The notes below the pieces were generated by a model. That model did no database searches. It had not been told where the DNA came from and worked only from the letters and a program-made list of their open reading frames with translations. From assembly GCA_023262195.1 (NCBI GenBank), contig JALRDM010000297.1, positions 1 to 5,730 of the forward strand: DNA of 5,730 nucleotides, given 5' to 3'. Positions 1 through 5,730 of this stretch are shown piece by piece. This stretch comes from Salibacteraceae bacterium (GTDB taxonomy: Bacteria > Bacteroidota > Bacteroidia > Flavobacteriales_G > Salibacteraceae). Position 1 is the stretch's first letter; each line of letters starts with the position of its first letter. The position numbers and the translations under genes are program-made.

Positions 1-563
1 GAACTATAGTTTCTTAAAAGGGAGTTCATAATTGTTACTTCATTGCCCTTTGAAAGAATAAACGCTGCTGCTGCATCTCCAAATAATGAATAGGTTTCCC
101 TGTTTTCTGGATTTAACCCGTTTGAAGATACTTCTGCAGAAATCAATAAAATTTGAGTCGCCTTCGACAACGCTAGTTTTTCGGTCGCTATTTCTAAGCC
201 TGTGATAAAGCTTAAACACGTGGTGTCAATATCAATACAGGGAATGTGATGTGCGCTATCGCAATCCAGCATTGATTTTATCACACTTGCTTGATTAGGT
301 AATACATAATCATAAGTAGCTCCGGCGAAAATCACTAAATCAATCTCATGTATTGATACCCTAGCCATCTCCATTGCCTTTAAAGCCGCCTCAGTTCCTA
401 ATTCACCATTAGATTCTGGATGATCTACCCAATGTCTTTTCCTGACTCCGGAATATCTTTCGGACCATCCTTCTGGCCATTCAAATTCACGCTCTATTTG
501 GGCACTATCTATTGGTTTAGGGACTGTCCAAGCATGTCCGATTATATTAAAGGAAAGGCTCAT
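1..563 (-). CDS. Ketoacyl-ACP synthase III (FabH-like), C-terminus cut off by window edge
   Basis: The reading frame starts at ATG (complement of 561-563) and stays open to the window edge, giving 187 residues, a little over half the usual ~330. The first half of the thiolase fold is recognisable: a GVRKRHW segment at residues 39-45, like the GI.eR region of FabH, then the nucleophile segment DIDTTCLSF with Cys116 (E. coli FabH uses Cys112), then FGDAAAAF at 161-168, matching the FGDGAGA-type motif. The catalytic His and Asn lie in the missing half. Family members condense an acyl starter with malonyl-ACP, or transfer acyl groups to hydroxyls. Being 44 bases downstream of the FkbH-like gene on the same strand, it is probably a secondary-metabolism paralogue rather than housekeeping fabH. 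TTC instead of the usual aCsG after the nucleophile supports a specialised subgroup. No Shine-Dalgarno is visible before the start. Confidence 0.85.
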   Translation of the reverse strand, partial: MSLSFNIIGHAWTVPKPIDSAQIEREFEWPEGWSERYSGVRKRHWVDHPESNGELGTEAALKAMEMARVSIHEIDLVIFAGATYDYVLPNQASVIKSMLDCDSAHHIPCIDIDTTCLSFITGLEIATEKLALSKATQILLISAEVSSNGLNPENRETYSLFGDAAAAFILSKGNEVTIMNSLLRNYS

Positions 564-607
564 CTAAGATTATATATTGGTTATTAACTGTTGGGACTAT
601 TTGAGGT

Positions 608-1936
608 TCAATTAATTTCCTCCAAAGGAATTTCTGTGATTGATTTGAGAAAATCCTGTGCTACACTGTTTTTATCAGTTCTTTTGAAGTTTATTGCCTC
701 TATTTTATATTTTGACAAAATCTCATTTAATACCGCATGCTCTAGTTTAAAACCGAGAGCTCTGCAGCTCAAAGCAAAGTTTGCCAAGACATCTTTTCTT
801 GAAATTAACGCATATCCAACCACTCCAAGACAACCGTATTGTGTTTCGCAATCCCAAGTGAAAACTCTGTAACTTTTTAGTTCCTTTTCATTCAACACTT
901 TTTTATTTAAGTTGAATTGGTTTGTCTTCGAGCTGAGTTCTAAAACCCTTTCTGCATGAGGGGTATGATTTTCATAAAGGTTGTATTTAAAATTAATCTT
1001 TAGATCCTGATGTTTCGGTTTGGAGATTGAACCTAATTTTCGCTCATAATGACCCCTTCTTTCCTTGATAAAACTAGCTTTCCCAAACGAGTAAAGGCCT
1101 TTAGATTTCAGATCATGCACAAAGTGTTGAAAATTATTTTTAAATATTTGTGTATTAATCTGTGGCAAATATTCTCCTATAGACCCAATTTCTAGAGGTC
1201 TATCGTCGATTATCAAGCAGTCCTCCATGGCGATTCCCATTCGGGCAACCATTTGATTTATTCTATTGTGTTTAGCGCCCCAGCCGCTATCAACATGTGT
1301 TATCCATTGATCCCATCCCGTGTCTATAAATTCTAGTGCCTCAATTATGCTAGAATGTTCGTTTTTGGAAACAATAATGACCTGAGCACCATAACTAGCC
1401 TGTTTCTTCAAGAACATTTTCATACATAGAAAACTTCCTGAAGATGGTTTTTGATATTCATCAGCTATTGATGCCTTATCTTCTTCCCATACACCAGGGA
1501 TTAACGTGTTGTCTAGATCAACAAAATAGCATTTTAAGGCTCCTCGCGTTTTTTGACGAATAAAGCTTTTTATCTCAATTATTAATTTTTCTATACCAAC
1601 CTTGCTCAATGGCATCTGGGCATAAAACCCAAATGAAAAATCATAATGGGAAATGTCTGAAATTATCCCATTACCATGTAAATCCGATAATAGTAAAACG
1701 CTATTCGAATAATGGTAACCCTGCACGAGTTGTCTTATTTCATTTGATGCACTGCTTGAATAATTCTTATAGAGGTCGGAAAATATAAAGACCACTATAG
1801 CGTTCTCTACTAAAGGAAAATCGTAAGTTTCGCTGTAATAGTATTTAGCCCGAATTTCTAATGATAAATGAGGCTCAACATATAAATCTGAAAAAATATA
1901 TGTGTCCATTAAGCTAAAAAGAAGGATTTGATTCAT
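608..1936 (-). CDS. FkbH-like HAD-family protein, putative glyceryl-carrier-protein loading enzyme
   Basis: This 442-residue protein has the FkbH layout: a short N-terminal region, a HAD (subfamily IIIC) domain and a C-terminal acetyltransferase-like domain. HAD motifs are complete: I, DLDNT at 140-144 (Asp140, Asp142); II, VSKNE with Ser190; III, Lys222 in WGAKHN; IV, IIDDRP with Asp244 and Asp245. The family's TNQFN is at 338-342 and SCRALG at 389-394, within the C-terminal domain. Characterised relatives take D-1,3-bisphosphoglycerate, dephosphorylate it and load glyceryl onto an acyl carrier protein, for methoxymalonyl units or tetronates. The sequence is divergent: from memory, most members read CSKN and DLDNTLWGG, whereas here they are VSKN and DLDNTLIPG. 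It is the first gene of a leftward pair with the FabH-like gene. Met10 (complement of 1907-1909) is a plausible alternative start, because homologues tend to begin at the strand corresponding to TYIFSD. Carrier partner and substrate are inferred. Confidence 0.85.
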   Translation of the reverse strand: MNQILLFSLMDTYIFSDLYVEPHLSLEIRAKYYYSETYDFPLVENAIVVFIFSDLYKNYSSSASNEIRQLVQGYHYSNSVLLLSDLHGNGIISDISHYDFSFGFYAQMPLSKVGIEKLIIEIKSFIRQKTRGALKCYFVDLDNTLIPGVWEEDKASIADEYQKPSSGSFLCMKMFLKKQASYGAQVIIVSKNEHSSIIEALEFIDTGWDQWITHVDSGWGAKHNRINQMVARMGIAMEDCLIIDDRPLEIGSIGEYLPQINTQIFKNNFQHFVHDLKSKGLYSFGKASFIKERRGHYERKLGSISKPKHQDLKINFKYNLYENHTPHAERVLELSSKTNQFNLNKKVLNEKELKSYRVFTWDCETQYGCLGVVGYALISRKDVLANFALSCRALGFKLEHAVLNEILSKYKIEAINFKRTDKNSVAQDFLKSITEIPLEEIN

Positions 1937-1998
1937 CTTAAAGTTAGTTAATATTTACACTCATCCAATCGGCTTTAAGTTTTAACTTGACTTCCGTT
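1937..1998. promoter_or_regulatory. Divergent intergenic region with candidate promoters
   Basis: These 62 AT-rich bases separate the starts of the leftward FkbH-like gene and the rightward acyltransferase-carrier gene, so promoters for both would be expected here. On the minus strand there is TTG (complement of 1966-1968), a 19-base spacer, then TAACTTTA (complement of 1939-1946). This is close to the Bacteroidota vegetative consensus TTG-N19ish-TAnnTTTG. It lies only two bases before the annotated FkbH start, so a transcript from it would favour initiation at Met10. On the plus strand TAAGTTTT at 1976-1983 is a weaker -7-like match with no TTG at the right distance. The boxes are short, so chance matches are possible. 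Confidence 0.35.
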
Positions 1999-3414
1999 AT
2001 GTCATACAGACGCTCTTTAACTTTTAATGAACAGTTATTTTTCGTTAACTCCGTATTTAAACATCGTGATGCGGTACAGGTACTTGTTAAGTTAACCTCA
2101 AGCAATCATAATAAAGCTGTAGATTCATTAAAACGCGGTATCGAATTGGTCTCAAGGGCGCATAGAATCCATTCTAGACGCGTCAGAGGGTCCAAGCTTT
2201 ATTTGGACAATACGAATGACGTGTACGTTAAAATCCATCATGAAGACAAGGAGCCTTCTTTAAAAAGTCCTTTATTTAATGACCCTGTAAAAAACACTGG
2301 AACTCTAATAGAGCATCACATCATTGTCACAACTAAACATTTATTCTTACTAGTTAAATGCCACCATGTTTTAATGGACGGTTCTGCGTATGTCCAATAC
2401 CTCAAAGATCTTTTTAAAGCCATTCGTGGTGTTCCAATAATTGGTGATCAACATTTATACTCCGAAGCCGATGCCTTTCCAGCGGATATTTCAAAAAGTG
2501 CCGGACTACAAAGACCCAAAATTTCTAGAGTTAGAGGAGATTGGCGCCCAAAAAGACCCCCAGAAACCCTATCCCATGACAAAGTAATTGGTAATCTTTG
2601 TGCCGTTTTAGCATTAGCAGTATCAAAAGCAACGGGAAGAAAAGGAAGCTTTATTGTCCCTTTCGATCTAAGAAAATTCGGAATCTGTAACTCTGGGTTT
2701 GGAAACATGACGCTTCCAATATATCTCTTTGTCAAACCCACAGACTCAATATCGGAAATTACAGCTCAACTAAACTTTCAAGTTAAATATAAAGCTCCGT
2801 TAAACAACAGCTTAAGCTCCTTTTGGATTAAACGCATCCCCAATTGGTTGCTAGGTCCTTCAGTTAAATTTATTCATATGTTCTCTCGAATCACGGGGTA
2901 TTATTTCGCAAGCGGGTTTATTTCTGATCTTGGGCAAGTTTCCTTACAGCACTTTTCTGCACCTGGTCTTGATGCAGTGGACCTTATCCCTGTTCCCATG
3001 GTAGGCACTCAAAGTCCGTATTCAGCATTTTGTTTGTCTCATGAAAACGGAACAAGAATAGGGCTGGCCGTGCATGTTGGAGAAGGCCTTCAAAAATGGG
3101 AAGAAGAAATACGCAGCATTATTGATAAACCGAACCCTGTTCTAAATGAAGTAGATGTTGCAGAAAACGAGTCCTTGGTCGAAGTGATTATATCTGCGTG
3201 GACACGCTTCTTAAAGCTGGAAAAACAAGAAGATATAACCCTCAGCAATAACTCATTCTCGGATTTTGGAGGTGATTCTGTTGCCTTGGTGTTAATGTGC
3301 TCGGAGATTCAAAAGGAGCTTTCCCTGGAGGGCAACCAACAAGTGATGACTAATATCTTCGCCCGAGGCACTTCGATAACATTACATGAAATGATTAAAA
3401 TCTACACTCGATGA
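1999..3414 (+). CDS. HHxxxDG acyltransferase (condensation/WES-DGAT-like) fused to C-terminal carrier domain
   Basis: This is a 471-residue two-domain protein. Residues ~5-380 resemble the condensation-domain/wax-ester-synthase acyltransferase superfamily: HHVLMDG at 122-128 supplies the catalytic His123 and Asp127, PFDLR at 221-225 and FGN at 234-236 match conserved positions, and SDLG at 309-312 resembles the late SNxG/DFG motif. Residues ~390-470 form a carrier domain with DFGGDS at 422-427, where Ser427 is the expected phosphopantetheine site. The enzyme should join an acyl thioester to a hydroxyl or amine, with one partner possibly held on its own carrier. There is no adenylation domain, so the carrier must be charged in trans, with the neighbouring FkbH-like protein a candidate. 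I chose ATG 1999; an in-frame TTG at 1987 would add four residues and is less likely. The gene overlaps the sulfotransferase by ATGA, so translational coupling is probable. Superfamily is clear; substrates are not. Confidence 0.82.
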   Translation: MSYRRSLTFNEQLFFVNSVFKHRDAVQVLVKLTSSNHNKAVDSLKRGIELVSRAHRIHSRRVRGSKLYLDNTNDVYVKIHHEDKEPSLKSPLFNDPVKNTGTLIEHHIIVTTKHLFLLVKCHHVLMDGSAYVQYLKDLFKAIRGVPIIGDQHLYSEADAFPADISKSAGLQRPKISRVRGDWRPKRPPETLSHDKVIGNLCAVLALAVSKATGRKGSFIVPFDLRKFGICNSGFGNMTLPIYLFVKPTDSISEITAQLNFQVKYKAPLNNSLSSFWIKRIPNWLLGPSVKFIHMFSRITGYYFASGFISDLGQVSLQHFSAPGLDAVDLIPVPMVGTQSPYSAFCLSHENGTRIGLAVHVGEGLQKWEEEIRSIIDKPNPVLNEVDVAENESLVEVIISAWTRFLKLEKQEDITLSNNSFSDFGGDSVALVLMCSEIQKELSLEGNQQVMTNIFARGTSITLHEMIKIYTR

Positions 3415-4478
3415 AAGTTTCATTTCTTTATGGTACAACATTCCGGCGCCTGTTGAAATATCCAATAAAGTTTAAAAAAAATATGGGCTTTGGAGGTTGG
3501 TTAAAGCTACTTCCATTTGTCCCTATTAGTGTGCTAAACTCTGTTTTAGCAATCCCGGATTATTTCTTCAAGGGTCAACGTCCAAAGCAACTAATTTTCA
3601 TTGTTGGACATTATCGCTCTGGAACAACTCATTTACATAACCTTATTGAAGCTGCAGGAGATTTAATAGCACCGACCACTTATGAATGTGCTATGCCCGC
3701 ACATTTTCTTTTTACAAACTCCTGGCTAAAACCGATTGTCTCTCTTTTTACTCCAAAACAAAGACTTTTTGATTCTATGAAAATGAGCGTTGATTCGCCA
3801 CAGGAAGACGAACTTGCTATGGCCAGCTATTGTGCGGCAACGCCATATCTATCTATTACCTTCCCTTTTGATGATGAATACTTTAAATCTTGTATTTCAT
3901 TGACTTCGTTGCCGCAAAAGGATTTAGAGGACTGGAAAGCTATTCACTCAAGGTTTGTGTTGAAGCTAGGTAGAAAAACCCACGGAAAGAAAGGCCTAAT
4001 ATTAAAATCCCCAGCTCATGCGTCAAGAATAAAAATGCTTTTAGAGCTCTATCCAGATGCTAAATTCATACATATTCACAGAGATCCTATACCTGTTATT
4101 AAGTCCAGCTTAAACCTTTACGGAGTATGGTATGAAATGCAATCTTTTGGCGATGTCTCCAATCTTAAAGAAAACAAAGAAAAAACTTTAATCGAGACCT
4201 ATAAGACTCTTGAGAATGGATGGGATAACGATCATACCCTGATACCAAAAAAAAATCGAATTGAGGTTTCTTTTAGTGATTTAAACACAAATCCAGCATC
4301 TACAATTGAATCTATATTCAGCCACTTAGATATTACGGGGTTCTCAAAAGAAAAACTAAACACGTACCTCAACTCAGTTAAAACTCATATTCCTGGTTCA
4401 TATCCCGAATTAAGCAATGATTTGCTAAAAAAAGCCAACCACCATCTGGAGGCTTATATTCTAAAGTACGGCTATTAA
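3411..4478 (+). CDS. PAPS-dependent sulfotransferase family protein
   Basis: This 355-residue protein has the hallmarks of a bacterial PAPS sulfotransferase. The 5'-phosphosulfate loop is VGHYRSGTTHL (from residue 65), with Arg69 to Thr73 in the position of the eukaryotic PKSGTT. The 3'-phosphate motif IHIHRDP at 220-226 is followed by Ser232/Ser233. DSPQEDE (128-134) and LKSPAH (198-203) are further family-typical segments. It would transfer a sulfuryl group from PAPS to an acceptor hydroxyl or amine. A hydrophobic stretch at ~34-53 just before the P-loop could be a membrane contact, but no clear signal peptide precedes it. Its ATG overlaps the stop of the acyltransferase-carrier gene by four bases, so the two are almost certainly one transcript. 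The acceptor is therefore likely to be, or be derived from, the acylated product of that protein. Its stop overlaps that of the convergent hydroxylase gene. No PAPS-synthesis genes are in the window. Confidence 0.88.
   Translation: MKVSFLYGTTFRRLLKYPIKFKKNMGFGGWLKLLPFVPISVLNSVLAIPDYFFKGQRPKQLIFIVGHYRSGTTHLHNLIEAAGDLIAPTTYECAMPAHFLFTNSWLKPIVSLFTPKQRLFDSMKMSVDSPQEDELAMASYCAATPYLSITFPFDDEYFKSCISLTSLPQKDLEDWKAIHSRFVLKLGRKTHGKKGLILKSPAHASRIKMLLELYPDAKFIHIHRDPIPVIKSSLNLYGVWYEMQSFGDVSNLKENKEKTLIETYKTLENGWDNDHTLIPKKNRIEVSFSDLNTNPASTIESIFSHLDITGFSKEKLNTYLNSVKTHIPGSYPELSNDLLKKANHHLEAYILKYGY
4475..4478. other. Overlapping convergent stop codons (TTAA)
   Basis: The sulfotransferase stop TAA occupies 4476-4478 and the stop of the leftward hydroxylase gene is the complement of 4475-4477, so the two genes share the palindrome TTAA. 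There is no room for a terminator between them. Each transcript must therefore extend antisense into the other gene or end inside it. Confidence 0.9.
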
Positions 4479-5563
4479 ATTGGCCTTTTATATTCCTTCA
4501 TTTGTTCGTTTAAATTCCGGAGTAATATAATGGCCGTATAGCCTATGGTAGCAGCTACTGATATTTTAACGGCGTGAAAGCCGAATAACCCAAGGTAGTA
4601 CATCACTATGCTTGAGCCTGCCAAGTTTAAAATCCACAATGACCAAGCGTATCGTTTCCTTTCTTGAGCCATTCCGATAATTATAGTGCCCAAGAGAATA
4701 AAAACAACAAAAACAGCTCCCGATACAATTGCGAGCCTATCCTGTATTGCGATAAATGATAATAGTTGTATGTAAAGTAGGAATGAAGCTATGTTTAGTA
4801 ATGGGTCGTTATTCAATTTCACATTTGGTCTTGAAGATTTTAAGAAGGGTAAAATATTCACCAAAATTGGGCTTCCAGTAGAAAAGCCCTTTCTAAGACC
4901 CAATTCGACAGGGACATGTTCAAGTTCTTGTTGATGAGTGCCGTATATCCGGTCCCAAATGCTAAATGTACCTCCACAGTTTTTGTTCAAATACTCTACA
5001 TTGACTCCATGATGTACCTTGTGAAGTGATGGTGTAATGAGAAACTTTTCCATCCATTTTGGATGCTTAATTACATCATTATGATTATAGAATTGCACGA
5101 AATAATGAATGGAAGAAACCAAAACAAAAATCTCCACTGGAATACCTATTAAAGCTAGCGGAATAAAAAATGGTAAGGATGAAATCGAAGAAAACCATGA
5201 GTTCCTTATTCCGAGCGAGGAATTAAAATGTTCTCCTTGATGATGAACTTCATGTATATACCATAGAAGGGGGATTCTATGATGAAGGTTGTGGAGCCAG
5301 TAGAATTGATGGTCCCAAAAAATTAGAGCAACCAGAACGACCCAGAACAACCCAATATAATCTGTTAATTGGAATGAAATTAACGTTGTCAAATAATAAT
5401 ATCCTAAAACCTCAAGGCCTCTTCCAAGCCAAAGAAGAATTTGTCCTGAGTTTAAATTCAGGGTGATTTCTGACCATGGAATTGGCTTTTTGAGAACCTT
5501 TAAGACTAATAACTCGAGGGTAACTAAAAGTAATAATAAGGCTGGGCCTATAAATATTGACAT
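4475..5563 (-). CDS. Sterol desaturase/fatty acid hydroxylase superfamily, alkylglycerol monooxygenase-like membrane protein
   Basis: This 362-residue integral membrane protein has the full histidine set of di-iron membrane hydroxylases: HNLHH at 91-95 (HxxxH with His91 and His95), HEVHH at 104-108 and HKVHHG at 181-186. His161 in YNHNDV and IWDRIYGT at 202-209 are also family-typical. Hydrophobic segments lie near 4-24, 42-62, 68-83 and 126-157, plus extra ones at ~255-275, 277-298, 306-326 and 329-348. That membrane tail beyond the hydroxylase core, and the segment around ITPSLHKVHHG, resemble alkylglycerol monooxygenase (TMEM195) more than short sterol desaturases. AGMO cleaves ether lipids using tetrahydrobiopterin; here substrate and cofactor are unknown, with lipid hydroxylation the safe call. 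It begins 8 bases after the hydratase stop on the same strand and converges on the sulfotransferase. No Shine-Dalgarno is visible upstream of the ATG. GC content fits the cluster, not the hydratase. Confidence 0.85.
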   Translation of the reverse strand: MSIFIGPALLLLLVTLELLVLKVLKKPIPWSEITLNLNSGQILLWLGRGLEVLGYYYLTTLISFQLTDYIGLFWVVLVALIFWDHQFYWLHNLHHRIPLLWYIHEVHHQGEHFNSSLGIRNSWFSSISSLPFFIPLALIGIPVEIFVLVSSIHYFVQFYNHNDVIKHPKWMEKFLITPSLHKVHHGVNVEYLNKNCGGTFSIWDRIYGTHQQELEHVPVELGLRKGFSTGSPILVNILPFLKSSRPNVKLNNDPLLNIASFLLYIQLLSFIAIQDRLAIVSGAVFVVFILLGTIIIGMAQERKRYAWSLWILNLAGSSIVMYYLGLFGFHAVKISVAATIGYTAIILLRNLNEQMKEYKRPI

Positions 5564-5571
5564 GGTGCTGT

Positions 5572-5730
5572 TTATTTACTCTTAAAAGCGTTTATGGCAT
5601 CTTTAGCTTCCTTGCTCAGGATCAGTTCGCCGCTAATCGCAGCGCGCTCGGCCAACAAATGATCCCAGTGCTCGGTGCCTTCCCAAAAGACCTTCTTGAG
5701 CCCGCGCATGGCAGGGACGGATTTGGTCAA
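5572..5730 (-). CDS. Enoyl-CoA hydratase/isomerase family, probably methylglutaconyl-CoA hydratase, C-terminal end only
   Basis: The last 52 codons of a leftward gene enter from the right edge and end at TAA (complement of 5572-5574). The visible part includes VFWEGTEHWD and LLAERAAISGEL, a tail I associate with Bacteroidota enoyl-CoA hydratases annotated as methylglutaconyl-CoA hydratase in leucine degradation. The crotonase catalytic residues lie outside the window, so the precise substrate cannot be confirmed. Third codon positions are about 65% G/C (34 of 52 codons), against roughly 37% in the first 30 codons of the hydroxylase gene that starts 8 bases downstream. The gene therefore looks like resident chromosome next to an AT-richer insert. 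The short spacing may allow read-through from the hydratase promoter into the hydroxylase gene. Confidence 0.75.
   Translation of the reverse strand: MTKSVPAMRGLKKVFWEGTEHWDHLLAERAAISGELILSKEAKDAINAFKSK

Follow-up and report, generated by a model that had tools for sequence, protein, structure and literature searches.

The window analysed here is contig JALRDM010000297.1 of the Salibacteraceae assembly GCA_023262195.1, taken at its entire length of 5,730 bases (G000:C69 in our dataset). It holds part of a gene cluster in which genes for a FabH-like ketosynthase, an FkbH-like protein, a protein with a condensation and a carrier domain (C-T), a sulfotransferase and a membrane fatty-acid hydroxylase stand together. 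Both contig ends truncate genes and the assembly contains nothing to the left of position 1, leaving five genuine genes (FabH truncated) and one gene end (Table 1). An earlier note on this DNA, covering positions 1 to 4478, had described FabH-like, FkbH-like, carrier and sulfotransferase genes in two divergent, tightly packed pairs. Family scans matched all of them, marking them as more than chance open reading frames (ORFs), and the packing was borne out: the C-T and sulfotransferase genes overlap by 4 bp, and the chosen start codons of the divergent pairs lie 89 bp apart, in a gap that is the likely place of the promoters. The carrier domain that the note had recognised is present, in a larger protein than noted, with a condensation-like domain N-terminal to the carrier. 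The hydroxylase gene lies outside the span of that note, yet it is a member of the cluster. Two other ORFs (591-872, plus strand; 2448-2741, minus strand) each overlap a genuine gene on the opposite strand and were taken as spurious.

Table 1. Genes and other features of the window, with the main evidence for each.
Feature	Position	Strand	Evidence
FabH-like ketosynthase, N-terminal 187 aa, truncated at contig end	3-563	minus	PF08545, 63 bits
FkbH-like protein (HAD part and acyltransferase part)	608-1909 (probable; ORF opens at 1936)	minus	TIGR01686, 105.4 bits
Gap of 89 bp between divergent starts (chosen start codons)	1910-1998		Coordinates
C-T protein: condensation-like domain and C-terminal carrier domain	1999-3414 (probable)	plus	PF00550 and PF00668 scores
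Sulfotransferase, PAPS-dependent type	3411-4478	plus	PF13469, 101 bits; motifs
Membrane protein of the fatty-acid hydroxylase/sterol-desaturase family, with histidine boxes	4475-5563	minus	PF04116, 86.8 bits
Enoyl-CoA hydratase, C-terminal end; flanking gene outside the cluster	5578-5730	minus	94% identity across 51 aa with the L006 gene in the corresponding position

The full cluster comprises eight genes, encoding the fatty-acid hydroxylase, C-T, the sulfotransferase, the FkbH-like protein, the FabH-like ketosynthase, an OleD-like reductase of the short-chain dehydrogenase/reductase type (SDR), a metallo-beta-lactamase-fold hydrolase (MBL) and an F390-related AMP ligase. All eight were found in three other metagenome-assembled genomes (MAGs; L004, L005 and L006), titled Cryomorphaceae or Flavobacteriales, and the window is a fourth instance that keeps whatever part its contig covers. 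The gene set thus recurs, and in two arrangements: L006 is divergent, as in the window, and L004 and L005 have all eight genes in one direction. Cluster proteins of L004 and L005 are 44-69% identical to those of L006. Families were scanned on L006 (the sulfotransferase on L004-L006). The best NCBIfam matches of the SDR are 2-alkyl-3-oxoalkanoate (OleD-type) reductases (157 bits against a cut-off of 580), that of the MBL is an AttM-type lactonase (79.8 bits against 390), and the ligase matches TIGR02304 with 349 bits, over the cut-off of 251.9. A desaturase-like gene lies upstream of the hydroxylase gene in L004 (6523-7245, PF00487) and in L005 (275-997, likened to that of L004 by its start and length).

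The named relatives agree with the Bacteroidota origin that had been proposed for this DNA; membership of this particular bin is doubtful. The contig is probably misbinned and from a Schleiferiaceae/Cryomorphaceae-type organism, because its hydratase end matches the L006 hydratase (L006 13577-14347) at 94% over 51 aa while the bin keeps its own divergent full copy (G000:C343:2924-3634), 61% identical to that of L006. The hydratases of the eight genus members searched are 61-63% identical to that of L006, and C-T is absent from the 34 other genomes of the bin's family. No rpoB gene was found in the bin, and we judged its taxon by kinship and a single GTPase. Transfer of the cluster together with its flank is possible, but less likely. 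The window has a GC content of 54% within the hydratase end and of 37% elsewhere; in L006 it is 48% in the right flank, 38% in the cluster and 40% in the left flank. A genomic island is only suggested, and on one side only.

The cluster has two layers: a core (FabH, SDR, MBL and ligase) and an add-on of this lineage (FkbH, C-T and sulfotransferase). We assign FabH to the core and the latter three genes to the add-on because the core recurs without FkbH or C-T. We searched 395 genomes from the class of the bin (class taken as Bacteroidota) for the ligase family TIGR02304 and obtained some match in 103 and a match over the cut-off in nine. FabH, SDR and MBL genes adjoin the ligase gene at all nine of these loci, a fatty-acid hydroxylase gene at four and a PF13469 sulfotransferase gene at two (L097 and L101). 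Neither FkbH nor C-T was found at any of the nine (E 1e-4; stretches of up to 18 kb, with only 5.5 kb for L099). The window hydroxylase is 41-45% identical to the hydroxylases adjoining the core in L096, L097, L100 and L103, and 37% identical to the one adjoining the core in Escherichia coli. Within the L006 family, TIGR02304 exceeds its cut-off in five of 88 genomes, three of which carry the add-on; the other two have the core and the hydroxylase without C-T, one of them (L145) on a short contig that ends inside the SDR gene.

The core also occurs on plasmids of several phyla. We examined 18 plasmid regions around FabH or F390 matches (from 364 and 41 records), and 13 of them contain a contiguous annotated core, two with an ATP-grasp gene inside it. 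An unannotated Burkholderia stagnalis region has all four core genes and the hydroxylase by tblastn, one P. amygdali plasmid carries the core in separated parts (two regions), another plasmid has it dispersed, and a Priestia region has FabH only. FkbH and C-T were found neither in the 19 plasmid and E. coli stretches nor in 11 Bacteroidota core loci (E 1e-3). The 13 contiguous modules bear other additions: a sulfotransferase in four (Paracoccus alcaliphilus, Paracoccus sp. MA and two Ketogulonicigenium), ATP-grasp, alone or accompanied by GNAT and Rieske genes, in six, PAP2, sterol desaturase and acyl-CoA desaturase genes in E. coli, and none of these in two.

Several further observations concern the core. 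A second recurrent add-on (L102, L113, L114 and L125) combines Rieske and ATP-grasp genes with GNAT, or with an unassigned gene where GNAT would stand; both the bin's class and Proteobacteria have it. The P. alcaliphilus plasmid locus (L110) has the core and a sulfotransferase gene, with genes for a nonribosomal peptide synthetase (NRPS), a carrier and an AMP-binding protein to one side and for a sulfate ABC transporter to the opposite side. Of 5426 complete E. coli genomes, 672 carry the four core genes, 670 of them on the chromosome; E. coli L119 and L128 have these genes in the interval from narI to purU, together with genes for PAP2, a sterol-desaturase-family protein and an acyl-CoA desaturase. 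The desaturase near the L004 and L005 clusters parallels the one beside the E. coli module. No described product of the core module was found in the literature searched, which covered few subscription papers, and the passages of PMC2649909 that were read do not describe the module.

One could regard the add-on genes as chance neighbours, unrelated to the core and to one another, since C-T is present in only three of the 88 family genomes. We consider this very improbable: the complete set is kept in all three even though their C-T proteins split into two subgroups sharing only 44-45% identity, and the window, as far as its contig reaches, keeps the set too.

The earlier note had read the genes as a tetronate-like core, in which the FabH-like enzyme would join a glyceryl-carrier to a beta-ketoacyl chain before sulfation. 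FkbH, carrier and FabH do co-occur here, and the motifs DxDxT, SKN, DD, TNQFN and SCRA are common to the window FkbH and the FkbHs of FkbH-ACP-FabH operons (ACP, acyl carrier protein), with one Asn-to-Asp exception adjoining DxD in another FkbH comparator. The likeness to tetronate operons extends to the motifs of FkbH, but the family score of FkbH is under the cut-off; it fails for the FabH. The window FabH has the active-site Cys (DTTCLSF) and is 84.5% identical over its 187 aa to the full-length L006 FabH, and an alignment of the full-length FabHs of L004-L006 shows the catalytic Cys, His and Asn all kept. In two Streptomyces FkbH-ACP-FabH operons (L130 and L131, labelled tetronate-type from gene content and not from a known product), the FabHs have Pro at the position of the catalytic His. 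The L006 FabH is 20-21% identical to these two, against 32-42% to the nine core FabHs of the class; it is 25-33% identical to core FabHs of other phyla and 34% to the Priestia FabH, which is without the core module. For the window half the corresponding values are 26-28% (L130 and L131) against 34-41% (class core FabHs). In a tree of 28 FabH rows the window falls inside a clade of 13 (support 96/97) that joins the four FabHs of this cluster to the nine core FabHs of the class; the L129 row (a Rhodococcus cluster discussed below) and the tetronate-type rows are long-branched and their own placement is unsure. The core is found without FkbH, the carrier is not stand-alone, and a family scan limited to the eight genes found no Agg4/Agg5-type acyltransferase or dehydratase there, so that their absence from the window, which the earlier note had pointed out, extends to the full cluster. 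We rejected a tetronate core on the FabH tree, the active site and the distribution of the core module, and consider a pathway of that kind highly unlikely.

The solved structures closest to the L006 FabH are 4v2p (E 1.9e-46, titled only 'ketosynthase'), which we take to be MxnB, and CorB (E 3.7e-44). By our own alignment, the window FabH has Val at the position of the catalytic Glu of OleA and PpyS, and the FabHs of L004-L006 do not have Glu there either. We therefore do not claim an Ole/PpyS-type condensation with a Glu base. According to PMC4578411, MxnB and CorB also have Val at this position, and they join two polyketide chains.

The carrier domain of the C-T protein has a GGDS motif and matches PF00550 with 25.1 bits (cut-off 20.8). 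Its condensation part has the motif HHVLMDG and scores 16.1 bits against PF00668, under the cut-off of 30.6; HHxxxDG is kept in all 11 aligned C-T rows, the window's included. The family scan found no adenylation domain in C-T. The protein is rare: among the 5.77 billion of the database searched it gave 16 protein clusters, counting that of the window, and one of the 16 is named Schleiferiaceae. No relatives were found in viral contigs, a lack on which we ruled out a phage origin of the cluster, and a search of the PDB gave no useful relative (best E 0.27). A plasmid search gave 18 records, the two lowest E-values (1e-18 and 5e-14) being from Rhodococcus. The condensation domain of one Rhodococcus NRPS (L129) is 25% identical to C-T (BLASTP E 3e-25, hhalign probability 98.9), in an alignment that spans the whole domain.

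The L129 NRPS is a single module with adenylation and carrier domains by Pfam, which misses its condensation domain as well. Its cluster also encodes two FabH-like proteins, a formyltransferase and a reductase of the OleD type, which scores 209 bits, under the cut-off. For the AMP ligase of the cluster the best family is 'fatty acid CoA ligase', over the cut-off, followed by olefin beta-lactone synthetase, under the cut-off. The annotated layout of L136, on a Rhodococcus plasmid, is the same. Both of these lipstatin-like clusters also have an MMPL transporter gene, and the two FabH-like proteins were family-checked in L129 only. The gene layout of L129 is that of lipstatin clusters, and the lipstatin NRPS is said to esterify leucine onto a lipid hydroxyl. 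Three further C-T homologues, from Streptomyces, are single modules with adenylation and carrier domains, two of them beside type I polyketide synthase (PKS) genes. C-T thus looks like a lipstatin-type single-module condensation-adenylation-carrier NRPS (C-A-T) minus its adenylation domain, and FkbH probably replaces that domain by loading glyceryl. The lipstatin layout is described in part in PMC12141560 and PMC7064751, and ester-forming condensation domains are discussed in PMC12304814.

The FkbH-like protein scores under the TIGR01686 cut-off of 146.65. Its HAD part has the motif DLDNT and its acyltransferase part KTNQFN and SCRALG. We give its probable extent as 608-1909, rather than from 1936, because four of the five closest aligned relatives begin at the second Met. 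FkbH relatives were matched in 44 of the 395 class genomes; the three best matches beyond the window (L105-L107) were examined and lie in other gene settings. Only the HAD part was matched in the PDB (3slr), and plasmid searches with FkbH and with the sulfotransferase gave only remote relatives. The low family score and the long divergence from other FkbHs leave some room for an enzyme that loads another three-carbon or hydroxy-acid unit, or for a carrier-bound unit that serves chain extension and not ester transfer. We consider this improbable, as the HAD and acyltransferase motifs are intact and the eight genes include no dehydrogenase/methyltransferase pair for a methoxymalonyl-type extension. 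Condensation domains, moreover, form esters or amides and not C-C bonds.

The window sulfotransferase matches PF13469 well above the cut-off of 27 bits, and its motifs GHYRSGTT and HRDP...SS align with those that we take to bind 3'-phosphoadenosine 5'-phosphosulfate (PAPS). Sulfotransferases adjoining the core fall into three sequence groups, all matching PF13469. Among the proteins compared, the closest to the window group are from Aureibacter and Gloeothece (166 and 125 bits), at loci without the core module; the sulfotransferases of L097 and L101 score 44-45 bits and those of Paracoccus and Ketogulonicigenium 20-22 bits. Since three separate groups stand beside the core, sulfation looks to have been recruited to it more than once. 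This fits a sulfated end product, but also a sulfation of the core lipid itself, for instance on the hydroxyl made by the hydroxylase, with glyceryl as a separate decoration or linker. Sulfotransferases do occur in core loci without FkbH and C-T, namely in two of the nine class loci and in four of the 13 plasmid modules. One species accounts for two of these four, and the three that were scanned match PF13469. The window sulfotransferase belongs to another group than those of core loci without FkbH and C-T, and its gene overlaps the C-T gene by 4 bp in all four clusters, which makes sulfation of the core lipid rather unlikely in our view.

As to sulfate supply, a locus of L097 (5726-14971) has the core, a sulfotransferase gene and a fatty-acid hydroxylase gene beside genes for a PAPS_reduct-family protein, presumably of the ATP sulfurylase small-subunit type, a CysN-kind GTPase and an adenosine 5'-phosphosulfate (APS) kinase. 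All three cluster genomes have an APS kinase, but the test is weak and permissive because 62 of the 88 genomes of the L006 family have one as well. The sulfated product proposed in the earlier note is therefore plausible, with the sulfotransferase groups beside the core in other lineages on its side and APS kinase adding little.

From the gene content, conservation, domain relationships, motifs and core/add-on modularity we infer all of the chemistry that follows. We give a probability of roughly 0.5 to a pathway in which the eight-gene cluster yields a chain-built lipid bearing a hydroxyl, to which glycerate and sulfate are then added as a cap. The FabH-like enzyme would condense two acyl or ketoacyl units and the OleD-like reductase would reduce the keto group. 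The MBL-fold hydrolase and the F390-related ligase would release and then re-activate the acid, and the fatty-acid hydroxylase would install a hydroxyl. FkbH would take glyceryl from 1,3-bisphosphoglycerate to the carrier domain of C-T, and the condensation domain would move it onto a hydroxyl of the lipid, by analogy with lipstatin-type C-A-T NRPSs and their amino acid. The sulfotransferase would sulfate the glyceryl unit, on the carrier or later. More tentatively, C-T without an adenylation domain, FkbH and the sulfotransferase might form a free-standing sulfoglyceryl-transfer cassette that caps the core lipid, with products that would, in uncultured Bacteroidota, represent a new class of bacterial sulfolipids, namely chain-fused hydroxy lipids esterified with sulfoglycerate.

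Several points weigh against this pathway. Every cluster-bearing genome is a MAG. The similarity of C-T to the lipstatin-type domain is only 25% identity, and three other homologues examined are C-A-T NRPSs outside lipstatin-like clusters. A FabH without the OleA/PpyS Glu base need not fuse two simple acyl chains. FkbH, under its family cut-off and only about 20-26% identical to plasmid FkbHs, may have a different substrate, and FkbH-like genes of a more distant kind lie elsewhere in two core-carrying genomes (G445 and G482). The target of the sulfotransferase could be the lipid itself, presumably the case at core loci that lack FkbH, and APS kinase is common in the family at large. If the pathway is nonetheless right, an uncultured group is predicted to make a new sulfolipid, and there is a handle on a core module that roughly an eighth of complete E. 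coli genomes carry. The pathway would also link the glycerate-loading and sulfotransferase logic of cyanobacterial peptides with a multi-phylum module, a link that we had not seen before. Whatever the product, the tetronate label for an FkbH-FabH-carrier neighbourhood should wait until its FabH has been typed.

The cluster can be compared with five known systems. The earlier note knew of no described pathway with this exact gene set, yet glycerate loading, a carrier and a sulfotransferase have been described together in cyanobacterial NRPSs. The sulfated glycerate of cyanopeptolin is linked to a glycerate-loading ('GA') domain of Oci and a sulfotransferase domain (PMC2533009), that of dysinosin to FkbH, carrier and sulfotransferase domains of DysB, with sulfate loss seen by mass spectrometry (PMC6520454), and a like origin is proposed for that of suomilide, with an FkbH-like domain in BslA (PMC13122637). 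FkbH, carrier and sulfotransferase likewise meet here. In those modules they are domains of one peptide synthetase; in the present cluster they belong to three different proteins, encoded next to a lipid module, and the eight genes include no adenylation domain, peptide module or O-methyltransferase.

Lipstatin-type (Lst) clusters such as Rhodococcus L129 share with the present cluster a KAS-III enzyme, a reductase with best matches of the OleD type (under the cut-off in both), an AMP ligase and a condensation-domain and carrier protein with a related condensation domain. The present cluster differs in having a single FabH and no LstAB pair with the catalytic Glu, an F390-related ligase (TIGR02304) in place of an OleC-like one, an added MBL, and FkbH and a sulfotransferase instead of an adenylation domain and a formyltransferase. 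Lacking the LstAB pair, the OleC-type ligase and the adenylation domain, it was rejected as a member of this type, which we keep as an analogy for C-T. Tetronate operons (RK-682, agglomerin and tetromadurin; for the last, as described in the literature) have FkbH and a carrier for glyceryl, where the present cluster has a carrier and an FkbH-like protein that keeps the motifs but scores under the family cut-off. Unlike in those operons, the FabH is of another branch with an intact Cys-His-Asn, and the carrier is the C-terminus of C-T, fused to a condensation domain. The MxnB and CorB ketosynthases of myxopyronin and corallopyronin resemble the FabH in structure matches and in Val at the Glu place, but no PKS gene lies in the cluster. 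The fifth system is the core module elsewhere (FabH, OleD-like SDR, MBL and F390-related ligase), the whole of which lies inside the cluster; in other genomes it carries other add-ons (ATP-grasp, GNAT, Rieske, PAP2, desaturase or other sulfotransferases) or none of these.

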